Assembly (NCBI RefSeq): GCF_026000115.1
Contig: NZ_AP026867.1
Location: forward strand, 5,444,001-5,508,000
DNA from: Aureispira anguillae
Lineage (GTDB): Bacteria; Bacteroidota; Bacteroidia; Chitinophagales; Saprospiraceae
DNA length: 64,000 nt
Reading direction: 5' to 3'
Shown here: positions 35,485 through 48,932 of the stretch, piece by piece
Layout: each line of letters starts with the position of its first letter
Position numbering within the stretch: the stretch's first letter is position 1
The notes under the pieces: generated by a model
The model's database searches: none
The model's input: the letters and a program-made list of their open reading frames with translations, nothing else
Told to the model about the DNA's origin: nothing
Position numbers and translations under genes: made by a program

Positions 35485-37425
35485 CTAATCAAACAACCTC
35501 CAAGAAATCCCCAAACGAACAACAAAATTAGTCACAGGATGCCGATAAGCTGTAAAGTAATTGCGCTGATACACAAAGTGCAATAAGTTTTCGGCTCGAA
35601 TAAAAAATCTAAATTGCCAAATTCTAAAACTTACATAAGCATCTAACCTTGGGTCAAGGCTTGTGGTAAAACTATTTTGATTGTAAAATGCTCCTGTCAA
35701 CGGTGCATATCCATCCGCTTGATAAGGGGTATGGTAGTAAAATGACAGCCCAACTTTTGCCAACATTGCTCGTTTGAATACATAACTTTGTAGATATAGA
35801 TTATGCTTAAAAAGAAGCTGAGGAATTCTAAAGTAATCTCCTCCTGCCAATACGGGTTGCCAAACAACTTGGTTATCTAAGTGCACTTTCCATATTTTAA
35901 AATCCCCCTGTAGTTTTACCTGTAAAATATTAACAGACTCTGTTGCTTGATGTACTTCGCTAGAATCGTAATACGTCCAATTGGTTAAGGTATGATTGAG
36001 TACTTCGCCTTTAAATTGTAGCCCCCATTGCTTTTTATCAATCTTATAGGTATAACTGCCTCCAAAATTAAGCTCTTGAATTTGCCTAAATAATAGATTG
36101 TTGTCCCAGACCTTATCCCACGAAACATACAGTTGGCGATCAATAAGGTTGGGCTGATAACGTTGAAATAATGCTTGCCCCTCCAAATAACCTAATTTTC
36201 CCATATCGTAACCCACTCGCCCTTTTAAAGAAAAATCTAACTGCCGCTCTGCCCAAGTTAATTGACCTTCTACCCTGTATTTAAATTTAAATTGAGGGTT
36301 GTTTTGGGCAACCAAACCGACTGATATATTGTGAATATTAAAATCAATGGGTTCTTGATAAACGGCATTCCAACTATGTTTCACATAGGCCTTTACCCAA
36401 AGTGGCGCCGAGGTCAAGCTCCCCCCTATTGCCTGTCGAAAACTCAATTCATTTTCTAATAATTGATGTCGAATAAAATGCCGTATCCCTCTTGGATTAA
36501 CACTCGCTAGCCCATACCAACTTCCATCTGTTGGAGGATTGGTATCAAAATACTTGTATCGGTTAAATTGATACGTAATCCGATGACTCCATTCGTTACT
36601 AGCGGCTGTATTCGTTCCCAAAGAATCTACCCTATTGTTGTACAAAAAATGAGTATAACTTACTTCTGTTAGATTGTAATGGGTACTGGCACTTGTGCTT
36701 CGAACATCTTGATTTGCCAAAAAATCATCCGTCAGCCCACCCAAGGTATCCACTATTATTCCACCATTATTTTCATGCTTAACAGCATTGGTTATAAAGT
36801 TGAGATAACCATGGTATTTTGACTTATTGGAAAAATAACGCAAGGTAAAACCTACATTCTGATTGCGGAGTCGTTGATGTTTAAAAAAGCCAGTTTGATT
36901 GGATAAATTATATTGTAATGCCAAATAAAAATTGTCGCTAAACTTATGAGCAAAATCAGCTTTAACTAAATTATTTTTCTGGTTAATCTGAGAATAGTAC
37001 AAATCGGTATAAGGGCGATTATCTTTTATGTTATAGTATTTAATATCCTCCCTATGCAATCGATAATTATCAAATTGATCCAACCCCACTCTAAAACCTC
37101 CTTTTAATTTAGGTTGGTAAAGAACATCAAAACTAGGGGTAGCCAACAAGCCTCCCAAACTAATATACCAGCTTGCATTATTCCAAGTTGGATCAACCGT
37201 TTCAAATTCATGTAAACTAGAATCTACCTGCAATAATTCTGTTGGATTGGTTAAGTAAGAATAATAGACTTTTGTCGTATCTCCTATAATCTTAAATTTG
37301 TTATTCCTTTTAGAAGCAATTTTTTGTTGTGCACTTAGAAAAGAAGTTCCTGCCAAGAAAAAAAGCAAACTGGTAAGTACAATTATTTTCAAGCTACTCA
37401 ATAAGTTATATGTACAATTGATCAA
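35485..37425 (-). CDS. Putative porin, outer-membrane beta barrel
   Basis: 646 residues with signal peptide ('IIVLTSLLFFLAGTSFLSAQ', to about residue 32). The sequence is dominated by alternating aromatic/hydrophobic strands ('NFYLALQYNLSNQTGFF', 'GYLNFITNAVKHENNGG', 'YVSFRIWQFRFFIRAENL') and ends in 'VVRLGISWRLFD', fitting a large barrel. It resembles the 'putative porin' family of Bacteroidota by its N-terminal half ('YYSYLTNPTELLQVDSSLHEF', 'FDVLYQPKLKGGF'). Substrate unknown. Transcribed divergently from the arginine operon across a 620-bp gap. Confidence 0.85.
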   Translation of the reverse strand: MINCTYNLLSSLKIIVLTSLLFFLAGTSFLSAQQKIASKRNNKFKIIGDTTKVYYSYLTNPTELLQVDSSLHEFETVDPTWNNASWYISLGGLLATPSFDVLYQPKLKGGFRVGLDQFDNYRLHREDIKYYNIKDNRPYTDLYYSQINQKNNLVKADFAHKFSDNFYLALQYNLSNQTGFFKHQRLRNQNVGFTLRYFSNKSKYHGYLNFITNAVKHENNGGIIVDTLGGLTDDFLANQDVRSTSASTHYNLTEVSYTHFLYNNRVDSLGTNTAASNEWSHRITYQFNRYKYFDTNPPTDGSWYGLASVNPRGIRHFIRHQLLENELSFRQAIGGSLTSAPLWVKAYVKHSWNAVYQEPIDFNIHNISVGLVAQNNPQFKFKYRVEGQLTWAERQLDFSLKGRVGYDMGKLGYLEGQALFQRYQPNLIDRQLYVSWDKVWDNNLLFRQIQELNFGGSYTYKIDKKQWGLQFKGEVLNHTLTNWTYYDSSEVHQATESVNILQVKLQGDFKIWKVHLDNQVVWQPVLAGGDYFRIPQLLFKHNLYLQSYVFKRAMLAKVGLSFYYHTPYQADGYAPLTGAFYNQNSFTTSLDPRLDAYVSFRIWQFRFFIRAENLLHFVYQRNYFTAYRHPVTNFVVRLGISWRLFD

Positions 37426-37639
37426 TGTTCGTCTAGATTAGATTATTATCCAAAACCCCAAATTACATAGTTTTCAATAAAATCTAGCTTTTTTGAGCAA
37501 TAGCTAACATTACTTTAGTAGATTTTAACAATGATTATCAAAAAATAAAGGCTCGTTGAAAACTAAATCTATTTTTTTTCAAAAAAAGCAGCTAAAAACT
37601 TGTTTGGTAATAAAATAATTCCGTGGTTTGTATTTAGAA

Positions 37640-37696
37640 ATGAACAAATTAACTCCACATATCATCTTACCCACACAACGACCTCGACGACGCTAG
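37640..37696 (+). CDS. Candidate arginine leader peptide 1
   Basis: 18 codons from ATG at 37640 to TAG at 37694: MNKLTPHIILPTQRPRRR. Four of the last five residues are arginine (codons CGA, CGA, CGA, CGC), directly before the stop. It lies about 350 bp upstream of the first gene of the arginine operon on the same strand, the position expected of a leader whose translation responds to charged arginyl-tRNA. No Shine-Dalgarno is visible, which is normal in this phylum. No leader of this kind is known to me for Bacteroidota; the call is inference from codon content and place. Confidence 0.5.
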   Translation: MNKLTPHIILPTQRPRRR

Positions 37697-37774
37697 TCCT
37701 TGCAGGTTTCCTACATCGTTTGTTCCATTTTTTCTACCTTCTTTTTCTTTACTACCATCATATAATCTAACGTC

Positions 37775-37882
37775 ATGCATCTGTATGTTACCACATACCA
37801 AACTCAAGCTACCCTAAGCGAACTTTGTTGTGTCACTCGACGACAACGACCGCAGGGCCGACGATGCATTTCTCGACGATAG
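37775..37882 (+). CDS. Candidate arginine leader peptide 2
   Basis: 35 codons from ATG at 37775 to TAG at 37880. It begins MHLYVTTYQTQATLSELCC and ends VTRRQRPQGRRCISRR. Seven of the last 15 residues are arginine, all CGA. The end (CTCGACGATAGTACC) resembles the end of leader 1 (CTCGACGACGCTAGTCC), so the two may be a tandem duplication of one sensing module. It may instead be repeat-derived DNA that happens to stay open: an ACGACCGCAGGG block is shared with the repeat at 34141. Confidence 0.42.
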   Translation: MHLYVTTYQTQATLSELCCVTRRQRPQGRRCISRR

Positions 37883-37915
37883 TACCACCTAACAGTGTTG
37901 GTTTCATTCACCTGC

Positions 37916-37945
37916 CACAATAAACTTACCAATAAGTTTGTTGTG
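37916..37945 (+). promoter_or_regulatory. Stem-loop in the arginine operon leader
   Basis: CACAATAAACTTA (37916-37928) pairs with TAAGTTTGTTGTG (37933-37945) over 13 positions with one A/G mismatch and a 4-nt CCAA loop, about 100 nt before the GNAT-ArgG start. There is no T run after it, so it is not a classical terminator; its right arm can also pair with upstream ACACAAC (37673-37679) inside leader 1. Confidence 0.5.
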
Positions 37946-38046
37946 CAATTCCTACAACCTAAGATCAACACACAAGATTTTCAATTGGTACATAATCAAA
38001 TCAAAATAAGTATTAATTAAATTTATATTTTTAATATCATTTTAAA

Positions 38047-39828
38047 ATGAACCAGTTTGTCATCACACTAGCAAATAGCCAACACTATCACTATGCTTCG
38101 GATATTTGTAACCTAATTCAAGAGTCCTCAAAAGTCCGTGGTACAGGAATTGCAGGGCGAACGCCCCAACAAGTTCTGCAAAAGATGCAGGAGAACAAAG
38201 GAATTATTGCATTAGCAAACGGGCAATTAGCTGGTTTCTGTTATTTTGAAGTTTGGGAAGATAATCAATTTGTCTCTAATTCGGCATTGATTATCCATCC
38301 TCAATTTCGACGAAAAAACCTAGCACGCCTGATCAAGGAATTCGCCTTCAAAACAGCAAGAGAGCGCTATCCAGACGCTATTTTATTTGGCTTAACAACC
38401 AGTTTGCCCGTTATGAAAATCAACAGTGAATTGGGACTCAAACCCACTGTATTTTCTCAGCTCCCACAAGATCAAAACTTTTGGGAAGGTTGTAAAAGCT
38501 GCGTCAATTTTGACATCCTATCTAGAACACAAAAGCAACATTGTCTCTGTGTCGGGATGCTTTTTGACCCTAAAAAAGAACAACATTCTATTTCTAATAT
38601 CAAACAACCATCAACTATGAAAGTCGTACTTGCATTTAGTGGAGGATTAGACACGTCCTTCTGTGTTCCCTACCTCAAACAGGAAAAAGGACTTGAGGTC
38701 TACACCGCCACTGTTAACACAGGCGGTTTTGACGATTCAAGTCTAAAAAAGATTGAAGCACATGCTTATAAAATTGGGGCAAAAAAGCACAGCACACTTG
38801 AAGCCACTTCAACGTATTATCAACAATGCATTAAATATCTCATTTGGGGCAATGTATTAAGATACAACACCTACCCACTTTCGGTTAGTTCTGAACGTTT
38901 TTTTCAAGCCATAGCATTGGTAGATTATGCCAAAAAAATTGGCGCAGAATACATTGCCCATGGCTCTACAGGAGCAGGAAACGACCAAGTAAGGTTTGAT
39001 TTAGCCATTCAAATATTAGCTCCTGATATAAAAATAATTACCCCGATTAGAAGTCTCCAACTCAGCCGTCAAGACGAGATTGATTACTTAAAAAAACAAG
39101 GCATTCAAATGGATTGGGAGAAAGCAACGTATTCCATCAATAAAGGCTTGTGGGGAACAACTGTTGGGGGTAAAGAAACCCTTACTTCTCATCAGAATTT
39201 ACCAGCTAGTGCTTATCCTTCTCCGCTTACTAAAACAACACCTGAAACCCTCTATATCCATTTCAAGAAAGGAGAAATAATAGGCATCAATCAACGTTTT
39301 TTTGACAACTCTATTGCTGCTATTCAAGCCATTGAAAAAATGGCTAGCGCATTTGCCATTGGTCGAGATACTCATATTGGAGATACTATAATTGGACTAA
39401 AAGGAAGAGTAGGTTTTGAAGCTGCCGCTCCACTCATTATTATAAAATCACATGAATTGTTAGAAAAACACTGTCTCACTAAGTGGCAAATTTATTGGAA
39501 AGAGCAGCTTGCTAATTGGTATGGAATGCTGTTGCATGAAGGGCAATATTTAGATCCCGTTATGCGTGCAATTGAAGCATTTATGGGAACCACCCAAGAG
39601 ACTGTTTCTGGAACGGTAGAAGTGCAATTGCATCCCTATCGCTTTGAATTAGTTGGAATCCAATCGGATCATGATCTCATGCAAGCCAAATTTGGTCAGT
39701 ACGGAGAAAGCAATCAATTATGGACCAGCGATGAAGCTGTCGGTTTTATCAAATTACTATCCAATCCAATCAAATTTTATCACCAAGTTAATGCCTCTGC
39801 ATCCAAAGATATTATCTATGAACACTAA
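38047..39828 (+). CDS. argG: GNAT acetyltransferase fused to argininosuccinate synthase
   Basis: 593 residues in one frame. Residues 1 to about 185 are a GNAT domain ('GFCYFEVWEDNQFVSNSALIIHP', then 'RRKNLARLIKEFAF' with the acetyl-CoA loop, 'GLTTSLPVMKINSELGL'), of the type that sits as a separate gene before argG in other Bacteroidota and is a candidate N-acetylglutamate synthase. ArgG starts at Met191 ('MKVVLAFSGGLDTSFCVPYL', the pyrophosphate loop). It continues with 'ATVNTGGFDDSS', 'YIAHGSTGAGNDQVRFD' and 'YSINKGLWGTTVGGKET'. ArgG joins citrulline and aspartate using ATP. The internal ATG at 38617 could give free ArgG as well. First gene of the arginine operon; its stop overlaps argC by 11 bp. 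Confidence 0.93.
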   Translation: MNQFVITLANSQHYHYASDICNLIQESSKVRGTGIAGRTPQQVLQKMQENKGIIALANGQLAGFCYFEVWEDNQFVSNSALIIHPQFRRKNLARLIKEFAFKTARERYPDAILFGLTTSLPVMKINSELGLKPTVFSQLPQDQNFWEGCKSCVNFDILSRTQKQHCLCVGMLFDPKKEQHSISNIKQPSTMKVVLAFSGGLDTSFCVPYLKQEKGLEVYTATVNTGGFDDSSLKKIEAHAYKIGAKKHSTLEATSTYYQQCIKYLIWGNVLRYNTYPLSVSSERFFQAIALVDYAKKIGAEYIAHGSTGAGNDQVRFDLAIQILAPDIKIITPIRSLQLSRQDEIDYLKKQGIQMDWEKATYSINKGLWGTTVGGKETLTSHQNLPASAYPSPLTKTTPETLYIHFKKGEIIGINQRFFDNSIAAIQAIEKMASAFAIGRDTHIGDTIIGLKGRVGFEAAAPLIIIKSHELLEKHCLTKWQIYWKEQLANWYGMLLHEGQYLDPVMRAIEAFMGTTQETVSGTVEVQLHPYRFELVGIQSDHDLMQAKFGQYGESNQLWTSDEAVGFIKLLSNPIKFYHQVNASASKDIIYEH

Positions 39829-40801
39829 ACCAATTAAAATAGGCATTTTTGGTGGAGCTGGCTATACAGCAGGAGAACTACTGCGTCTATTAATTCATCA
39901 CCCTTTGGTTCAAATTGAATGGATTCACTCCAACAGTCATGCAGGGCAAGCTGTCAGCACGGTACATCGTGATTTATATGACAATATTCAGCTCCATTTT
40001 TCAACAGCCATTACTCCTCAGGTAAATCTTGTATTTCTCTGTGCAGGGCATGGTCGTTCTAAAATGTTAATCTCTGAGTATAAACTGGATCAATATCCTA
40101 TAAAAATTATTGATTTAAGCGCTGACTTTCGAATGGCTTCTGCTCAACATAGTTTTATCTATGGTTTGCCAGCATTAAACAAAAACCAAATTAAAAAGGC
40201 TGACTACATTGCTAATCCTGGTTGTTTTGCAACAGCCATACAATTAGCGTTACTTCCATTGGCAAAAGCCCAATTATTATCAAAAAAGGAAGTACATATA
40301 CAAGCTATTACAGGATCTACTGGAGCAGGACAAGAGCCCAAACCTACGACTCATTTTAGTTGGCGACAAAATAATGTTTCTGTTTACAAGCCATTTGTTC
40401 ATCAGCATTTAGCAGAAATAAAACAAAGCCTTCAACAAGAAGCAAAAGAAAGTGATCTAACGATCAATTTCATTCCCATTCGAGGGGCTTTTAGCAGGGG
40501 AATTTTTGCTAGCATTTATTTGGATAGTAAGCTAACAGAAGCAGAAGCACAACAACTTTTTGAATCCTATTATGCTACTGCGCCTTTTGTCTATCTAACA
40601 ACGCAAAATCCAGATTTAAAACAAGTCGTAAATACCAACAAATGCCTTATCTATCTACAAAAGCACCAAGATAAGTTATTCATCATTAGCGCAATTGACA
40701 ATCTATTAAAAGGCGCTTCTGGGCAAGCCGTTCAGAATATGAATTTATTATTTGATTTCCCAGAAACAATGGGGTTGCAACTCAAAGCCACTGCATTTTA
40801 A
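39818..40801 (+). CDS. argC: N-acetyl-gamma-glutamyl-phosphate reductase
   Basis: 327 residues from the ATG at 39818. The frame is open further upstream, to 39653, but that part lies inside argG and shows no family similarity. N-terminal 'IGIFGGAGYTAGELLRLLIHHP' is the NADPH-binding loop and 'YIANPGCFATAIQLALLPL' carries the catalytic Cys136; 'GSTGAGQEPKPTTHFSW' and 'FIPIRGAFSRGI' are also conserved. It reduces the acyl phosphate made by ArgB to the semialdehyde. The 11-bp overlap with argG implies translational coupling; argD follows after 12 bp. Confidence 0.96.
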   Translation: MNTKPIKIGIFGGAGYTAGELLRLLIHHPLVQIEWIHSNSHAGQAVSTVHRDLYDNIQLHFSTAITPQVNLVFLCAGHGRSKMLISEYKLDQYPIKIIDLSADFRMASAQHSFIYGLPALNKNQIKKADYIANPGCFATAIQLALLPLAKAQLLSKKEVHIQAITGSTGAGQEPKPTTHFSWRQNNVSVYKPFVHQHLAEIKQSLQQEAKESDLTINFIPIRGAFSRGIFASIYLDSKLTEAEAQQLFESYYATAPFVYLTTQNPDLKQVVNTNKCLIYLQKHQDKLFIISAIDNLLKGASGQAVQNMNLLFDFPETMGLQLKATAF

Positions 40802-40813
40802 AACTATAGTATT

Positions 40814-41971
40814 ATGAACTTATTAGATGTTTATCCATTATTTGATCTAGAATTGGTAAAAGGAAAAGGAGCCTATATTTTTGACAAAGCAGGTAAGCCT
40901 TATTTGGATTTTTATGGCGGGCATGGCGTTATTTCTATTGGGCATAACCACCCCCATTATATTCAAAAAATCAACCATCAATTGTCTCAATTGGGTTTCT
41001 ATTCCAATTCTGTACACAATCAACTCCAAACTGATCTAGCAGATCAACTCGGTAAGGTTTCTAATTGTGAGAATTATCAACTTTTTTTGTGCAACTCTGG
41101 AGCAGAAGCAAATGAAAACGCCTTAAAACTAGCCTCTTTTTTGAATCAAAAATCAAAAGTAGTTGCTTTTAAAGGTTCGTTTCATGGGCGTACTTCCCTA
41201 GCTTTAGCCGTTACGGACAATTCTGCGATAAGTGCCCCCATTCACAAAAACAACACAACGACTTTTTTAGATTTTGGCGACTTGTCAGCACTAGAAAAAA
41301 CCCTATCCAAAGGCAACATTTCAGCAGTAATTATAGAAGGCATACAAGGAGTTGGTGGGGTTCAAATTCCTTCTAAAGCATTTATGCAAGCACTGCGTTA
41401 TTATACTCAAAAATACAATTGCTTGTTGATTGTAGATGAAATACAATCTGGTTATGGAAGAACGGGGCATTTCTTTGCGCATCAATACGCCGATGTCCAA
41501 CCTGACATCATTACTGTTGCCAAAGGAATGGGAAATGGCTTCCCCATTGCTGCCATGTTGGTGCATCCCAACCTAAAAGCCCAAAAAGGAATGTTGGGAA
41601 CTACTTTTGGTGGCAATCACTTGGCTTGTGCTGCGGGCTTAGCTGTGCTTGATGTCATAGAACAAGAACAACTTATTCAGAATGCCAATCAACAAGGTGC
41701 TTACTTATTAGAGCAGTTATCATCTTTAGAAGGCATTAAAGAGATTAGAGGCAAAGGGTTAATGATTGGGATTGAATTCGAGCAGTCTATCGTAGATTTA
41801 CGGCAACAGTTACTTTTTGATTATGGTATTTTTACAGGCATTTCTAAAAAAACTATTCTACGGCTTTTACCCCCTTTAACCATTAGCAAAAACGAGATAG
41901 ATTTATTCCTAACTCAATTTAAACAAGCACTTCAAGAATTTACAAAAACCTATTATAAGACCAATTGCTAG
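40814..41971 (+). CDS. argD: Acetylornithine aminotransferase
   Basis: 385 residues, class III PLP aminotransferase. Visible: 'LDFYGGHGVISIGHNHP', 'FLCNSGAEANENALKLA', 'FHGRTSLALAVT', 'LLIVDEIQSGYGRTGHFFAH', and the PLP lysine K237 in 'ITVAKGMGNGFPIAAMLV'; then 'TFGGNHLACAAG' and 'GKGLMIGIEF'. It converts N-acyl-glutamate semialdehyde to N-acyl-ornithine with glutamate as amino donor. It sits between argC (12-bp gap) and argF' (45-bp gap). Confidence 0.96.
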   Translation: MNLLDVYPLFDLELVKGKGAYIFDKAGKPYLDFYGGHGVISIGHNHPHYIQKINHQLSQLGFYSNSVHNQLQTDLADQLGKVSNCENYQLFLCNSGAEANENALKLASFLNQKSKVVAFKGSFHGRTSLALAVTDNSAISAPIHKNNTTTFLDFGDLSALEKTLSKGNISAVIIEGIQGVGGVQIPSKAFMQALRYYTQKYNCLLIVDEIQSGYGRTGHFFAHQYADVQPDIITVAKGMGNGFPIAAMLVHPNLKAQKGMLGTTFGGNHLACAAGLAVLDVIEQEQLIQNANQQGAYLLEQLSSLEGIKEIRGKGLMIGIEFEQSIVDLRQQLLFDYGIFTGISKKTILRLLPPLTISKNEIDLFLTQFKQALQEFTKTYYKTNC

Positions 41972-42016
41972 TTCTAGAATAGCAACAATATTCTAATTTA
42001 TTTCAAAATCAAAATC

Positions 42017-42976
42017 ATGCAACACTTTATCTCCGTCCACGACTTGGAGCAACCCCTTGCTATGCTATACCAAGCACAAAAGTTTAAAAAAGACCCTTTG
42101 ATGGCTAGGCAATTCGGGCAAGGAAAAACCCTTGGTTTATTGTTTTTTAATTCCAGTTTACGAACTCGATTGAGTGTACAAAAAGCGGCACTTAATTTAG
42201 GTTTATCTGTAATGATTATCAATGTAAACCAAGATTCTTGGAACTTAGAATTAGAGGACGGAAGCATTATGAATATGGATCGAGCAGAGCATATAAAAGA
42301 AGCCGCAGCAGTTATTGGTAGCTATTGCGATTTTGTTGGCGTTCGAGCATTTGCAAAATTAGAAAATAGAGCATTTGACTATCAAGAAGTCATCCTGCAA
42401 AAGTTCAAACAATATGCAGGCGTTCCTATCCTAAATTTAGAATCTTCCAGCCTACATCCTCTACAATCTTTTGCGGATTGGTTGACGCTAGAAGAGCATC
42501 GTCCTAAACATCGCCCCAAAATAGTAGTGACTTGGGCTCCCCATCCCAAGGCATTGCCGCAAGCGGTTGTTAATTCATTTTTAGAATGGACACCACTAAT
42601 GAATGCAGAAATAGTCCTTACTCATCCCAAAGGGTACGAATTAGCTCCCAAATTTGTCCAAAATTGCACGATCGAATACAACCAAGAAAAGGCATTTGAA
42701 GGAGCCGACTTTATTTATGCCAAGAATTGGTCTTCGTTCAAGCACTATGGTCAGGTTCTAAATCAGGATGCTAGTTGGAGGATTACCACTAAAAAAATGC
42801 AGCTCACCAACCAAGCAAAATTTATGCACTGTCTCCCTATTCGACGCAATGTAATAGCTGAGGATGCCGTTTTGGACAGTTCTTATGCACTGCACTTACA
42901 ACAAGCAACCAATCGCTGTCCTACAGCACAAGCGGTTTTATTTCAATTATTGTCAAATCTCAAAAACAACCACTGA
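42017..42976 (+). CDS. argF': N-acyl-ornithine carbamoyltransferase (ArgF')
   Basis: 319 residues. Carbamoyl phosphate motif is S-S-L-R-T-R (46-51) and the second motif is H-P-L-Q (147-150), the pattern of the Bacteroidota N-succinyl/N-acetyl-ornithine transcarbamylases rather than ordinary ArgF. Also 'VTWAPHPKALPQAV', 'TIEYNQEKAFEGADFIYAKNW' and 'FMHCLPIRRN'. It carbamoylates acylated ornithine to acyl-citrulline. The residue at position 90, which from the published work on this family decides between acetyl (Glu) and succinyl (Pro), is Ala here ('MDRAEHIKEA'), so the acyl group cannot be assigned from sequence. The stop TGA overlaps the next start (TGATG). Confidence 0.93.
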   Translation: MQHFISVHDLEQPLAMLYQAQKFKKDPLMARQFGQGKTLGLLFFNSSLRTRLSVQKAALNLGLSVMIINVNQDSWNLELEDGSIMNMDRAEHIKEAAAVIGSYCDFVGVRAFAKLENRAFDYQEVILQKFKQYAGVPILNLESSSLHPLQSFADWLTLEEHRPKHRPKIVVTWAPHPKALPQAVVNSFLEWTPLMNAEIVLTHPKGYELAPKFVQNCTIEYNQEKAFEGADFIYAKNWSSFKHYGQVLNQDASWRITTKKMQLTNQAKFMHCLPIRRNVIAEDAVLDSSYALHLQQATNRCPTAQAVLFQLLSNLKNNH

Positions 42977-44832
42977 TGGAGCTCTTAACAATTGTCAAAA
43001 TAGGAGGTCATATTATCAACTGTCCCGACTTATTAAACCAATTTCTAAATCAATTTGCAGCATTACCCACTCCTAAAATTTTAGTCCATGGAGGGGGCAA
43101 AAAAGCAAGTGATTTAGCCCAACAATTGGGTATAGAAGTCAAAATGAAGGAAGGAAGACGAATTACAGATCAAGCAACTTTAGACATTGCAACCATGGTG
43201 TATGGTGGTCTAATCAACAACCAAATTACGGCTCAACTGCGCCATTTAGGATTGCATCCTCTAGGTCTTAGTGGAGCTGACTTGGGCATTCTTAGTGCAA
43301 AGAAGAGAACCGCTACTAGTATTGATTATGGCTATGTTGGCGATATTACCCAAATTGATGCCCTACAAATCCAAACACTGCTTCAACAGCAAATTACCCC
43401 CGTTTTTGCTCCCTTAACGAGTAATACAAAGGGGCAACTGTTCAATACCAATGCAGATACAATCGCCGCAAAACTAGCAAGTGCTATGCAGGGTTTTTAT
43501 ACGGTTAAATTGCACTATTGTTTTGAGCATAAGGGGGTCTTGTCCAATCTAGATGGTCAAAAAGTTGTAATTCCTGAACTCTCTCCCAATCAATTGCTTG
43601 TCTTGCAAAACAATGGAACCATCAAAAATGGTATGATTCCTAAGTTGCAAAATGGTTTTTCAGCATTAGAGGCTGGCGTAAAAGAAGTCACCATTTGCCA
43701 CTTTTCAAGCATTGGAATAGGAACCCAGTTAGTCCATAATCTCCATGCCCCTCAAAGGCTTTCTTTAAACAACAAACCGCTTTCTAAAATTGCAGAAAGT
43801 ATATTGAGGCAACTCATTAGAATCCCATCGCTGAGTAGAAAAGAAGCCCAAACCGCTCATTTTTTATCCGATTGCATTCACCAACTTACAGGCGTTGTAC
43901 CTCAACAAAAGCACCATAATTTATGGATTAAAAACAAACATTTTAATCCTGACTTACCTAGTATCTTGCTCTGTTCTCATCATGATACCGTAAAACCAGT
44001 TAAAGGATGGAGTAAAAACCCATACCTCGATCAATTGGAGGGAGATCGACTTTATGGTTTAGGCAGTAATGATGCAGGTGCATCTTTGGTCTGTTTATTA
44101 GCAACCTTCTATTATTATTACAATACTCCTAAACTTCCTTATAATCTAATTTTTGCAGCCGTAGCAGAAGAGGAAATTTCTGGAGCGAATGGAATTTCTG
44201 CTATTCTAGAAGAATTGGGGACAATTGATTTGGCAATTATAGGAGAACCGACACAAATGCAGTTGGCCATTGCAGAGAAGGGCTTAATGGTATTGGAAGG
44301 AATTGCGGAAGGTAAATCAGGTCATGCTGCTAGAAAAGAAGGCATTAATGCAATTAGTATTGCACAAGCAGATATTGCTTGTCTAGAATCCTTAGCCTTA
44401 GATCGAGTTTCAACCACTTTAGGTGCAGTTAATATAGCGGTAACACAAATCCAAGCAGGTTATCAACACAATATTATTCCTGATAGCTGCCATTTTGTAG
44501 TAGATGTTCGCACCAATGAATGTTATTCCAATACTGAGCTTTTTGAGCTGCTTCAAAAACAACTCAAAAGTAAGCTCATTGCCAAATCTTTCCGCCTAGG
44601 TCCCTCCAGCATTTCTTTGGAGCATCCTATTGTCAAAAAAGCACAGCAAATAGGTTTAGCAACATTTGGCTCTGCAACGCTTTCCGATCAAGCCTTAATT
44701 TCTTTTCCAAGTGTCAAGATTGGGCCTGGCGATTCTAAACGCTCTCATACTGCTGATGAATATATCCTATTATCTGAGCTAAAAACAGGCATTCAAACTT
44801 ATATCAATCTATTAAATAAGCTAACATTATGA
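42976..44832 (+). CDS. argB-argE: Bifunctional N-acetylglutamate kinase / M20 deacylase fusion (ArgB-ArgE)
   Basis: 618 residues in one frame. Residues 1-255 are ArgB: 'VKIGGHII' (Lys8), 'ILVHGGGKKASD' (37-46), 'GRRITDQATLDIATMV', 'LGLSGADLGILSAKK', 'FNTNADTIAAKLASAM'. After a short linker an M20 peptidase-fold deacylase begins near 265. Metal ligands: H335-x-D337 ('CSHHDTV'), D366 ('GSNDAGA'), E398-E399 ('VAEEEIS'), E424 ('IIGEPT') and a final His ('RSHTADEY'), so both halves look active. The second half matches the ArgE'/LysK type and should remove the acyl group from acyl-citrulline (or acyl-ornithine). The two activities are steps 2 and 6 of the pathway. Start overlaps argF', stop overlaps carA (ATGA). 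Confidence 0.94.
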   Translation: MELLTIVKIGGHIINCPDLLNQFLNQFAALPTPKILVHGGGKKASDLAQQLGIEVKMKEGRRITDQATLDIATMVYGGLINNQITAQLRHLGLHPLGLSGADLGILSAKKRTATSIDYGYVGDITQIDALQIQTLLQQQITPVFAPLTSNTKGQLFNTNADTIAAKLASAMQGFYTVKLHYCFEHKGVLSNLDGQKVVIPELSPNQLLVLQNNGTIKNGMIPKLQNGFSALEAGVKEVTICHFSSIGIGTQLVHNLHAPQRLSLNNKPLSKIAESILRQLIRIPSLSRKEAQTAHFLSDCIHQLTGVVPQQKHHNLWIKNKHFNPDLPSILLCSHHDTVKPVKGWSKNPYLDQLEGDRLYGLGSNDAGASLVCLLATFYYYYNTPKLPYNLIFAAVAEEEISGANGISAILEELGTIDLAIIGEPTQMQLAIAEKGLMVLEGIAEGKSGHAARKEGINAISIAQADIACLESLALDRVSTTLGAVNIAVTQIQAGYQHNIIPDSCHFVVDVRTNECYSNTELFELLQKQLKSKLIAKSFRLGPSSISLEHPIVKKAQQIGLATFGSATLSDQALISFPSVKIGPGDSKRSHTADEYILLSELKTGIQTYINLLNKLTL

Positions 44833-45911
44833 AAACCCAACAACAAACTGCACTATTGACTTTTGAAGATGGTACTACCTTCGAAGGCTTGGTATTTGCC
44901 AATGGAAATGATGCCATAGGAGAAGTGATTTTTAATACTTCTATGGTTGGGTATCAAGAAATTTTAACCGACCCTTCTTACAAAGGTCAAATGGTTGTTT
45001 TAACCTCTCCTATGATTGGAAATTATGGAATCATAGACAAAGACATTGAGTCTAACTGCGTACAAATCAAAGCACTATTGGTTAAAGAATATTGCGACTA
45101 TCCCAATAATTGGGAGGCCAGTCAAACCCTCAAAAGCTACTTAGAAGCAGCCAATGTACTTGGTGTTGAGGGCTTAGATACTCGTGCAATCACCAAATAC
45201 ATTCGAAAAACAGGTGCTAATAAGGCGACATTAACTCGTTCAGAATCAAACCATAAATTATTAACAGAAGAGAAGGATGTATTAAAAGCAGTTTCTACGC
45301 CTACGATCAAACATTACCCCTTAAAAGACAAAGCCTGTTTTAAAGTAGCGGTAGTGGATACTGGTATCAAGTGGAACATATTGAGAATACTACAGGAATT
45401 AAACTGTGAAGTAGTGCGTTTTCCATACACCATAACCGCTGAAGTCTTGCTTTCAGAAGGATTTGATGGTGTCTTATTGTCCAATGGTCCTGGGGACCCT
45501 CGCAAAGCAAAAAATTTAGTCCAGATGGTTCAACAACTCATTGGTAAAATCCCAATATTTGGCATCTGTATGGGGCATCAAATTCTGGGAATGGCATTGG
45601 GGGGAACTGTAGAAAAATTAAAATTTGGGCATCATGGCAGCAATCATCCGATTAAAAATTTAGAAACGGGGCGTGTTGAAATCACAGCACAAAACCACAA
45701 CTATGTTTTAGCCAATGACTCCTTTGCCTCAAAATTGGTAAAAGTAACCCATACCAATTTGTTGGATGATTCTATTGCAGGCATTCGACATTTAGAGCAC
45801 CCGATATTTTCTGTACAGTATCATCCTGAGGCCTCTCCTGGCCCCAATGATTCTGCTTATTTATTTCAAACCTTTGTGAGTTTTATGCAAACTCCAACCA
45901 ATCAACAATAG
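44829..45911 (+). CDS. carA: Carbamoyl phosphate synthase small subunit
   Basis: 360 residues. N-terminal domain 'LLTFEDGTTFEGLVFA', 'GEVIFNTSMVGYQEILTDPSYKGQMVVLTSPMIGNYGI', then a class I glutamine amidotransferase with the catalytic Cys247 in 'FGICMGHQILGMALGG' and the His-Glu pair in 'YHPEASPGP'. It supplies ammonia from glutamine to CarB. The 4-bp overlap with the ArgB-ArgE fusion and 3-bp gap to carB place it inside the arginine operon, so this carbamoyl phosphate is probably made mainly for arginine. Confidence 0.97.
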   Translation: MKTQQQTALLTFEDGTTFEGLVFANGNDAIGEVIFNTSMVGYQEILTDPSYKGQMVVLTSPMIGNYGIIDKDIESNCVQIKALLVKEYCDYPNNWEASQTLKSYLEAANVLGVEGLDTRAITKYIRKTGANKATLTRSESNHKLLTEEKDVLKAVSTPTIKHYPLKDKACFKVAVVDTGIKWNILRILQELNCEVVRFPYTITAEVLLSEGFDGVLLSNGPGDPRKAKNLVQMVQQLIGKIPIFGICMGHQILGMALGGTVEKLKFGHHGSNHPIKNLETGRVEITAQNHNYVLANDSFASKLVKVTHTNLLDDSIAGIRHLEHPIFSVQYHPEASPGPNDSAYLFQTFVSFMQTPTNQQ

Positions 45912-45914
45912 ATT

Positions 45915-48900
45915 ATGCCAAAAAGAACCGACATTCAGAAAATATTAATCATAGGATCAGGCCCTATTGTAATTGGGCAAGCCTGTGAATTTGATTATTC
46001 AGGTACACAAGCCTGCAAAGCATTAAGAACAGAAGGCTATCAGGTGGTTTTAGTCAATTCTAATCCTGCTACGATTATGACCGACCCTAGCGTTGCAGAT
46101 GTGGTATATATTGAGCCTTTGGACCCAATAGTTTTGGAAAAAATTATTGCCAAAGAACGCCCTGATGCTCTGCTCCCTACATTAGGTGGGCAAACGGCTC
46201 TAAACTTGTGTATGGAACTCCATCTAAAGCGTATTTTGGAACAATACCACGTAGAAGTTATTGGTGCCAGCATCGAAACAATTAACAAAGCAGAGAGTAG
46301 AGAACGTTTTGCTCAATTGGTTGATAAAATCGGGCTAAAAACCTCTGTTGCTCGCAGAGCTTCAACGTTAGAAGAAGCCAAAATTATCCGTAAAGAACTT
46401 GGCTTTCCTTGTTTGCTAAGAGCATCTTACACCCTTGGAGGAAAAGGAAGTGGTGTTGCTTATGACGATACTACTTTTTTAGAAATTGCTCAAAAAGGCT
46501 TGGAGGCTAGTTTAACTTCTGAAATTGCCATTGAAAAATATTTAGGCGGCTGGAAAGAATTTGAATTAGAAATGATGCGAGACAAAAACGATAATTGTAT
46601 TGTTGTTTGTGGTATGGAGAATTTTGATGCCTTGGGTGTGCATACTGGAGACTCAATTACGGTGGCTCCGATCCAAACGTTAACCAATCATCAGTATCAA
46701 AAAATGAGAGATGCGGCTATTGAGTTAATGAAAATAGTTGGGGTAGAAACAGGTGGAGCTAATATACAATTTGCCGTTTGTCCTCAGACGGGTGAAATGC
46801 TGGTGGTTGAAATGAACCCTAGAGTTTCTCGTTCTTCTGCCTTAGCTTCCAAAGCTACGGGTTATCCCATTGCAAAATTTGCCGCAAAATTAGCCGTTGG
46901 TTATACCTTAGATGAATTACAAAACGACATTACCCAAAAAACAGCTTGTTTTGAGCCTGCTCTAGATTATTGTGTGTTAAAGTTCCCTCGTTTTAATTTT
47001 GAAAAATTTGAAGGCAATAATCACTTAGGGACAACCATGAAAGCACTAGGAGAAGTTATGGCAATTGGTAGAACATTTAAGGAGGCACTCCAAAAAGGGA
47101 TTCGTGCCTTGGAAATTCCCTCCATCAATGGTGGAAGCCAAGAAGAGGTCTTAAATCAATTATCGATTCCCAATCCTCAACGAATTTTTTACTTATTTGA
47201 AGCGTTCAAGATGGGATGGAATGTCGATACCGTTTATCATTATTCTAAAATTGACAAATGGTTTTTGCATCAAATCAAACAGTTGGTTAATACTCCTAAG
47301 CCAATATACAACAATCCTCAATCCATTCGCACCGCCAAACAACTAGGCTTTTCGGATGCTGATTTAACCCAAGCTTTAGATTTTGAGCATGAAAATGCCT
47401 TTAGAAACTATAGAAAAGGGCATAAAATACAGCCTACTTATAAACTGGTTGATACCTGTGCCGCAGAATTTGAAGCCTATACCCCCTATTATTATTCCAC
47501 TTATGAACAAGAGGATGAATCCGCAGTCTCTGACCGAGCTAAAATTATGTTGGTCGGTAGTGGCCCTAATAGAATTGGACAAGGCATTGAATTTGATTAT
47601 TGTTGTGTTCATGCTGCCCAAACCATTCGCAAAATGGGCTACGAGTGCATTATGGTAAATTCTAACCCTGAAACGGTTTCAACCGATTATGATGTTTCGG
47701 ATAAGTTATATTTTGAGCCCATTAGCTTTGAGGAGGTCTATAACATTTATGAAAAAGAACAGCCACAAGGTCTAATTTTACAATTGGGTGGACAAACTCC
47801 TTTTAATCTAATCGAATCCTTAAATGCAGTGGGGGTTCCCATCTTGGGTACTGCTCCTATCAACATTGCCAAAGCAGAAAACAGAGCCCAATTTAGTAAT
47901 TTATTAAAACAGCTCAACATTCAGCAACCCCAACATGCCATTGCTCAAAACGCTTCCGAAGTTTGGAACAAAGCACTTGAAGTTGGTTATCCGATTTTAA
48001 TACGTCCTTCCTTTGTTATTGGAGGCAGTCAAATGGCAATTATTTCAAAAAACACCGAACTCCAACAATATTTAGCGCAGCATACCCTTACTTATCCACT
48101 TTTAATTGATCAATTTTTGGGGGATGCAATCGAAGTCGATGTGGATTTAATTTGTGATGGTACGGAGGTTGTTATTGCAGGAATTACCGAACAAATACAA
48201 CCTGCAGGGGTTCATTCGGGGGATTCAGCTTGTACTTGGCCTACCTATACTATTGCCCCATCCATCCTAGAGCAAATCCAGCAAATAAGCACTCAATTGG
48301 CTTTAGAATTAAATATTATTGGTTTATTAAACGTTCAAATTGCCCTTCAAAAAAATCAAATTTATATTTTAGAAGCCAATCCTAGAGCCTCTAGAACCCT
48401 TCCTTTTATTAGTAAAATACAGGGTGTAAATTGGCTGGAGCTGGCAACCAAGGTAATCTTAGGAGCAAAGCTAAAATCCTTAGAATGGACAGCAACTCCT
48501 ATTGTTGGATATGCCGTAAAAGAAGTCGTTTTTCCCTTTTCTAAATTTGAAGAAACGCCTATTATTTTTACTCCACAAATGCAATCAACTGGAGAAGTAA
48601 TGGGCATGGCAACTAGTTTGGGCATGGCGTATTACAAAGCAAAATTAGCAACAGGTATTAAGCTTCCTACTCATGGGAAAGTATTGGTAGATCGTGAATT
48701 TATAGCCCCTGATTTTTGCGCTAAATTAGGCTTTGAACCAACCACCAGTTTAGAACAAGCAGATTTATTAATTAGCATTCATTCTCAAAAACCCAAGCCC
48801 AATAGTTTGGCATTACGTCGAATGGCTTGGGACAAAGGGATTCCCATTATTTGTTTTGAGCGAGAACTGGATTTATTCCAGCAGGCAATTAAAGCCTTAA

Positions 48901-48932
48901 ATTCGCAGCCACTAGAGGTTTGTTCTTTATAA
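45915..48932 (+). CDS. carB: Carbamoyl phosphate synthase large subunit, shortened allosteric domain
   Basis: 1005 residues against about 1070 for the usual enzyme. Both ATP-grasp halves are complete ('IGSGPIVIGQACEFDYSGTQ', 'LLRASYTLGGKGSG', 'VVEMNPRVSRSSALASKATGYP' and 'VGSGPNRIGQGIEFDYCCVH', 'LIRPSFVIGGSQM', 'ILEANPRASRTLPFISK'), plus 'STGEVMG'. The C-terminal MGS-like domain, which binds UMP, IMP or ornithine in E. coli, is only about 90 residues instead of about 135. It runs from 'HGKVLVDREF' almost directly to 'QADLLISIHSQKPKPNSLALRRMAWDKGIP' (written here as two adjoining parts), with roughly 45 residues missing. Control by nucleotides is therefore probably changed or lost. Last gene of the operon. 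Confidence 0.95.
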   Translation: MPKRTDIQKILIIGSGPIVIGQACEFDYSGTQACKALRTEGYQVVLVNSNPATIMTDPSVADVVYIEPLDPIVLEKIIAKERPDALLPTLGGQTALNLCMELHLKRILEQYHVEVIGASIETINKAESRERFAQLVDKIGLKTSVARRASTLEEAKIIRKELGFPCLLRASYTLGGKGSGVAYDDTTFLEIAQKGLEASLTSEIAIEKYLGGWKEFELEMMRDKNDNCIVVCGMENFDALGVHTGDSITVAPIQTLTNHQYQKMRDAAIELMKIVGVETGGANIQFAVCPQTGEMLVVEMNPRVSRSSALASKATGYPIAKFAAKLAVGYTLDELQNDITQKTACFEPALDYCVLKFPRFNFEKFEGNNHLGTTMKALGEVMAIGRTFKEALQKGIRALEIPSINGGSQEEVLNQLSIPNPQRIFYLFEAFKMGWNVDTVYHYSKIDKWFLHQIKQLVNTPKPIYNNPQSIRTAKQLGFSDADLTQALDFEHENAFRNYRKGHKIQPTYKLVDTCAAEFEAYTPYYYSTYEQEDESAVSDRAKIMLVGSGPNRIGQGIEFDYCCVHAAQTIRKMGYECIMVNSNPETVSTDYDVSDKLYFEPISFEEVYNIYEKEQPQGLILQLGGQTPFNLIESLNAVGVPILGTAPINIAKAENRAQFSNLLKQLNIQQPQHAIAQNASEVWNKALEVGYPILIRPSFVIGGSQMAIISKNTELQQYLAQHTLTYPLLIDQFLGDAIEVDVDLICDGTEVVIAGITEQIQPAGVHSGDSACTWPTYTIAPSILEQIQQISTQLALELNIIGLLNVQIALQKNQIYILEANPRASRTLPFISKIQGVNWLELATKVILGAKLKSLEWTATPIVGYAVKEVVFPFSKFEETPIIFTPQMQSTGEVMGMATSLGMAYYKAKLATGIKLPTHGKVLVDREFIAPDFCAKLGFEPTTSLEQADLLISIHSQKPKPNSLALRRMAWDKGIPIICFERELDLFQQAIKALNSQPLEVCSL

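Follow-up and report, generated by a model that had tools for sequence, protein, structure and literature searches.

Two arginine-rich leader frames ahead of the arginine operon of Aureispira anguillae: a candidate tandem attenuator in Bacteroidota

Accounts of arginine control in bacteria usually centre on repressors. In the his, leu and trp leaders of enteric bacteria, a leader peptide rich in the end product stands before the biosynthetic operon, together with alternative RNA folds. A locus of Aureispira anguillae raises the question whether arginine synthesis may be controlled in this second way in Bacteroidota as well. It lies in the window, i.e., the whole stretch of 64,000 nucleotides that was analysed, and has two short, arginine-rich frames ahead of an arginine operon.

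Leader-peptide attenuation itself is old, and arginine-sensing leaders are already known in Salmonella speF and S. aureus rbfL. A comparative study of attenuation was reportedly made by Lopatovskaya and others in 2010. For Flavobacterium psychrophilum, of the same phylum as the window, leader-peptide attenuation has been proposed for amino-acid operons; the section concerned names neither arginine nor an arginine operon (PMC9723704). Leader-like short frames have also been suggested in 5' regions of B. thetaiotaomicron (PMC7366714), and a leader peptide as well as possible attenuation are mentioned for Pseudomonas carA (PMC4997734). Among the matches listed in the open-access literature, no arginine leader peptide of Bacteroidota and no tandem leaders for the same signal were described.

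Two arginine-rich frames in the gap before the operon

The operon at 38047-48932 is one of arginine synthesis (Table 1). Both leaders are located within the 621-bp gap that separates the fused GNAT-ArgG gene from a divergent gene on the minus strand (35485-37425), the start of which faces the gap; leader 2 lies 164 nt upstream of GNAT-ArgG. An earlier note on this DNA had claimed two Arg-rich frames of 18 and 35 codons ahead of the arginine operon; both are present and together span the coordinates that it gave. Its counts hold as well, i.e., arginine makes up four of the last five residues of leader 1 (three CGA codons, one CGC) and seven of the last 15 of leader 2, each one encoded by CGA. 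CGA thus provides 10 of the 11 Arg codons of both leaders, compared with 24 of 104 (23%) in eight window genes.

Table 1 Features of the leader region and the arginine operon in the window
Feature	Position	Strand	Description	Basis
Promoter-like region	37600-37630	+	TTG (37600-37602), 20 nt, GTGGTTTG (37623-37630)	sequence
Leader peptide 1	37640-37696	+	18 codons, MNKLTPHIILPTQRPRRR, C-terminal QRPRRR	sequence
ACATAT element	37657-37662	+	17 nt from A of leader 1 ATG	
Predicted hairpin	37680-37708	+	across leader 1 Arg codons and stop codon	
Candidate terminator	37718-37733	+	GTTTGTTC (37718-37725), then CA, six T (37728-37733)	
Leader peptide 2	37775-37882	+	35 codons, MHLYVTTYQTQATLSELCCVTRRQRPQGRRCISRR, C-terminal TRRQRPQGRRCISRR	sequence
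ACATAC element	37793-37798	+	18 nt from A of leader 2 ATG	
Predicted hairpin	37825-37849	+	TTGTTGTGTC with leader 2 Arg codons	
Predicted stem-loop	37912-37948	+	downstream of leader 2, CACAATAAACTT with AAGTTTGTTGTG	
GNAT-ArgG	38047-39828	+	593-aa fusion of a GNAT domain and ArgG; opens the operon	
argC	39818-40801	+	start picked by us within a longer frame	
argD	40814-41971	+		
N-acetylornithine carbamoyltransferase	42017-42976	+		
ArgB-ArgE fusion	42976-44832	+	ArgB and ArgE domains in a single 618-aa protein	
carA	44829-45911	+		
carB	45915-48932	+		

In dinucleotide shuffles of the gap, one ATG frame with at least four Arg among its last ten residues was found in 4 of 2000 cases and two such frames in none; the reverse complement of the gap held one. 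Across the whole window, counting ATG frames of 8-70 codons from the first ATG at the same Arg threshold, the plus strand has just leaders 1 and 2 and the minus strand has one frame. For five leader peptides, i.e., window leader 2 and four relatives (leader 1 was too short), neither a Pfam family at E up to 1 nor the profile PF10940 of the SpeFL/orf34 family was matched, and an NCBIfam scan gave a single chance-level match with E 0.26. That the frames are due to chance, or encode a small functional Arg-rich protein, is hence hardly conceivable. The mere existence of short frames would fit such an origin; the shuffles, the lack of protein family matches and the recurrence of the frames ahead of one operon all argue against it.

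We propose, with a probability of about 0.78, that the arrangement represents ribosome-mediated, arginine-responsive attenuation by two leader peptides in series, with the arginine operon turned on when arginine is scarce. This direction was inferred from the identity of the operon.

Arginine-rich frame ends in relatives

Relatives were taken from the best 80 of at least 588 confirmed GNAT-alignment matches (named loci), from 298 genomes of the order, 148 of them with a match, and from 60 more stretches; these sources yielded 169 distinct upstream regions. Short frames with at least four Arg in the last ten residues were present in 70 of the 169 regions, compared with 2.0% of shuffles and eight of 169 reverse complements. 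At a threshold of three Arg, the count rose to 111 of 169 regions (12.5% of shuffles, 37 of 169 reverse complements), and it was 56 of 79 for the named loci. When all 20 amino acids were compared, Arg alone was strongly enriched at short-frame ends; Pro came next and was mildly raised, with at least three residues in 31 of 169 regions and 12.3% of shuffles.

Occurrence varied between groups. In the Christiangramia family (that of locus L108, titled Christiangramia and listed under Flavobacteriaceae by NCBI; its genomes came without kinship information), four or more Arg were found in 25 of 29 regions and in three of 29 reverse complements. The corresponding counts in a class-wide sample were five and two of 25. 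Under this strict rule no such frame was found in 99 of 169 first-sample and 20 of 25 class-wide regions, counts that drop frames of more than 70 codons from the first start and miss the visible leaders L032 and L036. All seven named Bacteroidales-type loci (Labilibaculum, Labilibacter, Marinilabilia, Carboxylicivirga, Paludibacter and another Bacteroidales) lacked a leader, as did five of six named Pedobacter loci. The leader appears to be common, not universal.

Leaders of the Saprospiraceae type end in RRRxxRRRP, those of the Lewinella type in RIRLLRRRI or RRDRRRVxRTK. RPVPVRVRR and PRPRRGC are found in the Chitinophagaceae type, our label for family f20, the leaders of which resemble three records named Longitalea or Chitinophagaceae. 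RIPRRR is the end in Balneolaceae, Rhodothermia, and SRRRLFMPRV that in Mucilaginibacter. The family of the window, as used in our searches, also includes records named Saprospiraceae and Neolewinella lacunae. Chitinophagaceae-type leaders (L146, L148, L151, L158 and similar) are moreover conserved at positions distant from the Arg end (MQKNLT...RGVFPV...), beyond what codon sensing needs.

All six Arg codons occur in the 75 leaders with at least four Arg (CGC 90, CGA 83, AGG 61, CGT 59, CGG 45, AGA 12), and the stop codons are TAA in 37, TGA in 20 and TAG in 18. Compared with the adjoining genes at 53 loci, leaders over-use CGA (55 seen, 30.3 expected) and AGG (37 seen, 21.3 expected) and avoid AGA (4 seen, 27.7 expected).

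The earlier note had named frameshifted relatives as evidence against the leaders. Pooled over 16 groups, pN/pS was 0.54 in the leader frame compared with 0.94 and 0.98 in the shifted frames; the groups were hand-picked, and aligning them in the leader frame flatters the in-frame value. Three small groups deviated, with ratios near 1 in two of the 16 and of 2.05 in one. The pooled value suggests some purifying selection on the leader frame. Conservation between relatives, another point of the note, was borne out in that short Arg-ended frames are kept in many of them, if not in every one, while the RNA and the choice of Arg codons change. It is the Arg-rich end of the peptide, not the RNA or the Arg codon choice, that seems constant between clades. 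The earlier observation is correct, and larger in extent than claimed.

RNA folds at and after the leader stop

In the window, the predicted fold of 37640-37745 around leader 1 had a z-score of -2.11 (8 of 200 shuffles equally stable), and that of 37670-37745 one of -1.85 (13 of 200). Pairing is possible between GTTTGTTC and GAACAAAT, which lies at 37642-37649 in the first codons of leader 1 (E -7.6, p 0.055), and the closing of the candidate terminator at 37718-37733 by the leader 1 start is a borderline prediction. A search for plus-strand terminator-like sites in 37000-39000 found none; attenuators that depend on Rho do without such a site. The region of leader 2 (37775-37960) gave a predicted fold with a z-score of -3.29 and one of 200 shuffles equally stable. 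Its downstream stem-loop has no U run after it, and the 5' arm could alternatively pair with TTTGTTGTG (37824-37832) inside leader 2, as read by eye. In the predicted fold, the leader 2 start region ATGCATC (37775-37781) can also pair with GATGCAT among the Arg codons (37863-37869).

Neither of the two clade motifs described below was matched here: the Saprospiraceae RNA pattern had no match in the window genome, and model R1, with an E cut-off of 0.01, gave 32 matches that do not include the window. Matches to the GNAT-ArgG protein were found in 16 of 60 genomes of relatives, whereas eight same-genus genomes gave none, so that this gene has a patchy distribution within the genus. The folds predicted for the window therefore rest on one sequence. 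In the genome G209 (L201), GNAT and ArgG also form one frame, of 582 residues; most other relatives with GNAT-ArgG matches have them at two separate places.

In Saprospiraceae-type relatives, the stop codon lies within or next to a hairpin CGCCC-loop-GGGCG. In most rows CATAT follows 8-10 nt after it, and then two overlapping, mutually exclusive hairpins, the stem sequences of which differ between species. In 17 of 25 sequences, no more than 5 of 100 shuffles attained their combined stability; the other eight did not pass this limit. The 25 rows had been selected for the stop-codon hairpin and include the near-identical L004 and L040. Seven of the 25 have no overlapping hairpin pair, L046 was reached by 12 of 100 shuffles, and L123 was solved in a different register. 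By a hand count on L004, the first switching strand of the main Saprospiraceae type lies about 22 nt past the stop codon. This distance is beyond the usual reach of a terminating ribosome, and the coupling of ribosome and fold is therefore not obvious in this type. A pairing of the strand right after the stop with the ACAUAUUACCC strand was dropped upon inspection by eye, as only GGG:CCC is kept.

RNAalifold found two pairs in the Saprospiraceae alignment A8 and none in the Chitinophagaceae-type alignment A5, both with variable loop lengths or misaligned outliers, and nine pairs, four of them with a double change, in the Lewinella-type alignment A4. We hence used per-sequence helices for the Saprospiraceae type and ten core rows for A5. 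In these ten Chitinophagaceae-type sequences a predicted stem runs from the stop codon onward, with 99.1% of cells paired and slid registers at 40.9% or less; four of the 14 rows had been dropped, which favours that structure. Three of five measures beat all 500 shuffles, whereas double-change pairs were reached by 93 and further pair types by 417 of the 500.

The Christiangramia family has a stop-codon hairpin CGCCC-GUAA-GGGUG followed by a hairpin, P2, with the conserved loop AGGUGNGUCC. Over 71 sequences, aligned to fit the structure and thus biased toward it, 90.4% of cells were paired compared with 58.7% in the best slid register, and compensatory changes occurred in 8 of 13 pairs (59 cells). 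Of 500 shuffles, nine reached the number of double-change pairs and none reached the other four measures. The P2 loop is near-invariant in these 71 sequences (alignment A12), with the inner pair being A-U in three (L280, L369, L377). We also considered AGGUGA in this loop, the complement of the 16S 3' end, as a Shine-Dalgarno sequence. This was dropped because by eye no start codon lies at the usual distance; the A-U in place of the inner G-C pair in the three sequences speaks against it, too.

The near-invariant P2 loop is more conserved than an attenuator needs, and some Arg codons lie within hairpin arms. Both would fit a structured RNA with direct binding of a ligand or protein, in which case the short frames would be by-products of GC-rich hairpins. 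We regard this as very unlikely, since Arg is kept by AGG as well as CGN codons, Arg ends stay while the RNA differs between clades, the reading frame is constrained, and a promoter box stands at the leader ATG (see below).

A further possibility is an arrest peptide. TnaC and SpeFL act as arrest peptides at the stop codon. Here, the finished Arg-rich chain, often ending Arg-Arg-Pro-stop, would hold the ribosome at the stop, possibly with free arginine or ornithine as co-factor, and the parked ribosome would govern Rho or folding. RRP* is the end of many leaders in Saprospiraceae and of the leaders in the Christiangramia family, the hairpin is located on the stop codon, and the Chitinophagaceae C1 leaders conserve residues far from the Arg end. 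The stretch between leader stop and GNAT is moreover C-rich and G-poor (C 27.0%, G 16.5%, n = 75; for the initial 300 nt of GNAT the values are C 24.7% and G 26.0%, n = 59), which would suit Rho. However, chain ends vary widely between clades (RRRP, RIPRRR, RVRR, RRRLFMPRV, RRRI), which is more in line with codon sensing than with a set contact between chain and tunnel, and the Pro codon belongs to the hairpin stem and is explained without arrest. We hence consider an arrest peptide unlikely.

The motifs are tied to the operon. With up to three mismatches, the Saprospiraceae pattern occurred at 20 places in 16 of 150 genomes, compared with two matches of a reversed control pattern. Places with 0-2 mismatches were upstream of GNAT in 12 of 12 cases and those with three in two of eight. 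Model R1 gave exactly one match per genome in 71 of 120 genomes, and 70 of these 71 are among the 75 with the GNAT gene; the search filters lose weak matches, and the model had been made from 28 of these 71 sequences. The match lies just upstream of GNAT on the same contig, as read from the two coordinate lists. In the one exception, G484 (L343), the element is followed by a 198-codon frame unlike GNAT and then by an argG 57% identical to that of the window; apparently, another gene has taken the place of GNAT behind a leader that was kept. Model R1 also matched the Saprospiraceae-type L045 (E 2.4e-5) and L004 (E 0.0018). Scattering over many unrelated loci, which the earlier note had named as a counter-argument, was thus not found; the elements are bound to the arginine operon. 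The window gave no Rfam match at the gathering score, Bacteroid-trp and T-box included, and 30 relatives at E up to 1 gave just two chance-like eukaryotic families, both in L010. The Bacteroid-trp RNA RF01692, from the same phylum (PMC2864571), is thus matched by neither.

Tandem leaders, putative promoter and read-out

A second Arg-rich frame (at least three Arg in the last ten residues) lies upstream of 35 of the 71 R1 elements, compared with 1.7 expected from shuffles and none in their reverse complements. In 31 of the 71, the stop of the upstream leader is 105-145 nt before the R1 element. The window follows the same tandem plan as these 31 Christiangramia-family elements. Pairing of the start of the first leader (A) with a downstream U-rich stretch reached p 0.05 or less against mononucleotide shuffles in 14 of 32 cases.

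The sequence TAnnTTTG, which we take to be the -7 box of Bacteroidota, is found in 39 of the 75 leaders at no more than 22 nt from an in-frame ATG, and in 37 it ends 4-9 nt before the ATG; its density in these regions would give about 2% per 15 positions. Among the 31 tandem elements a full box is found before leader A in nine and before leader B in none, and single leaders have it in 13 of 40 cases. The box points to a putative promoter upstream of the leader frames. In the window, GTGGTTTG ends 9 nt upstream of the leader 1 ATG in a degenerate form of the motif that lacks the TA, and this copy appears weaker than that of box-bearing relatives.

How could such leaders control the operon? When charged Arg-tRNA is scarce, a ribosome would stall at the leader Arg codons before it reaches the stop, and the RNA beyond would adopt a fold that lets RNA polymerase, or the message, proceed into argG...carB. 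With two leaders in series control would multiply, as a transcript would survive only if both checkpoints read low arginine. The sequence of stalling, refolding and termination is proposed from the comparison of structures in relatives. That the frames are genuine arginine-sensing leader peptides is very probable, and sensing by stalling at Arg codons is probable, too. For the read-out, we lean towards premature termination rather than an effect on translation or decay.

Most predicted post-leader hairpins seem to lack a proper U tract; U tracts are found in some relatives, not in general. With lax settings terminator-like sites were counted in 36 of 91 regions, a raw number without shuffle comparison. 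The poor U tracts would agree with a read-out in which stalling at Arg codons switches folds and thereby governs either cleavage by RNase or how accessible the GNAT start is, as in Salmonella speF. There, in the arginine-responsive short frame orf34, ribosome pausing at consecutive Arg codons or at the stop decides on a hairpin just past the stop, and Rho acts in this leader, too (PMC6386406). In our relatives, however, the motif ends 40-226 nt (median 48.5, 30 cases) before the GNAT ATG, which is far for a direct block, and a single control point for the whole operon would presumably be better placed at transcription. Translation or decay as the read-out is therefore rather doubtful, and premature termination remains our preferred one.

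The nearest worked example is speF. Like orf34, the leaders are short frames with consecutive Arg codons and a predicted hairpin at or after the stop codon. In contrast, speF is a polyamine gene, the peptide of which belongs to PF10940 and senses by Arg codons 12-13 and not by the one before the stop (PMC6386406). The window leaders precede a biosynthetic operon, have Arg at the peptide end and no Pfam match, and come from another phylum. S. aureus rbfL senses arginine limitation via leader Arg codons and ribosome pausing, much as proposed here; it acts on translation of a biofilm regulator, has two Arg codons and represses at low arginine (PMC13009471). The Salmonella mgtCBR leader has two short frames with an attenuator each (PMC3641672). 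They respond to two different signals, ATP and proline, whereas both frames are Arg-rich here. With the his, leu and trp attenuators the window shares an end-product-rich leader ahead of a biosynthetic operon and, by prediction, candidate alternative folds; it differs in the amino acid, the lack of a consistent U-tract terminator, a leader start at or near the presumed 5' end, and the presence of two leaders.

In many members of a large phylum, leader peptides hence appear to control the arginine operon, and their RNA parts have diverged between clades while the Arg-rich end was kept. This yields RNA elements without an Rfam match, one to a genome, and a natural series of single and tandem leaders in which one-step and two-step attenuation can be compared. 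These bacteria make little use of Shine-Dalgarno pairing, and the leaders would offer a route to study ribosome-polymerase coupling under such conditions.

Two features, ACATA at +15 to +18 and the near-invariant AGGUGNGUCC loop, are unexplained by classical attenuation. ACATA occurred 30 times at these positions in 75 box-bearing leaders, compared with about 0.4 expected for three positions. We tentatively consider an arginine attenuator with two checkpoints for the window and the 31 tandem elements, acting on a message that is nearly leaderless. Both leaders would read one amino acid and thereby sharpen the response, and ACATA and the loop would be additional parts, the loop as a second sensor or a contact for ribosome or protein. 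A search of six genomes for ACATAY leaders at other genes gave 43 places; among the 39 examined, a full box with a short frame was present only at argG leaders and in one weak case, L224. The offsets of +17 and +18 in the window make the element independent of the reading frame. CATAT, which follows the stop-codon hairpin in Saprospiraceae-type relatives, is similar to ACATAY.
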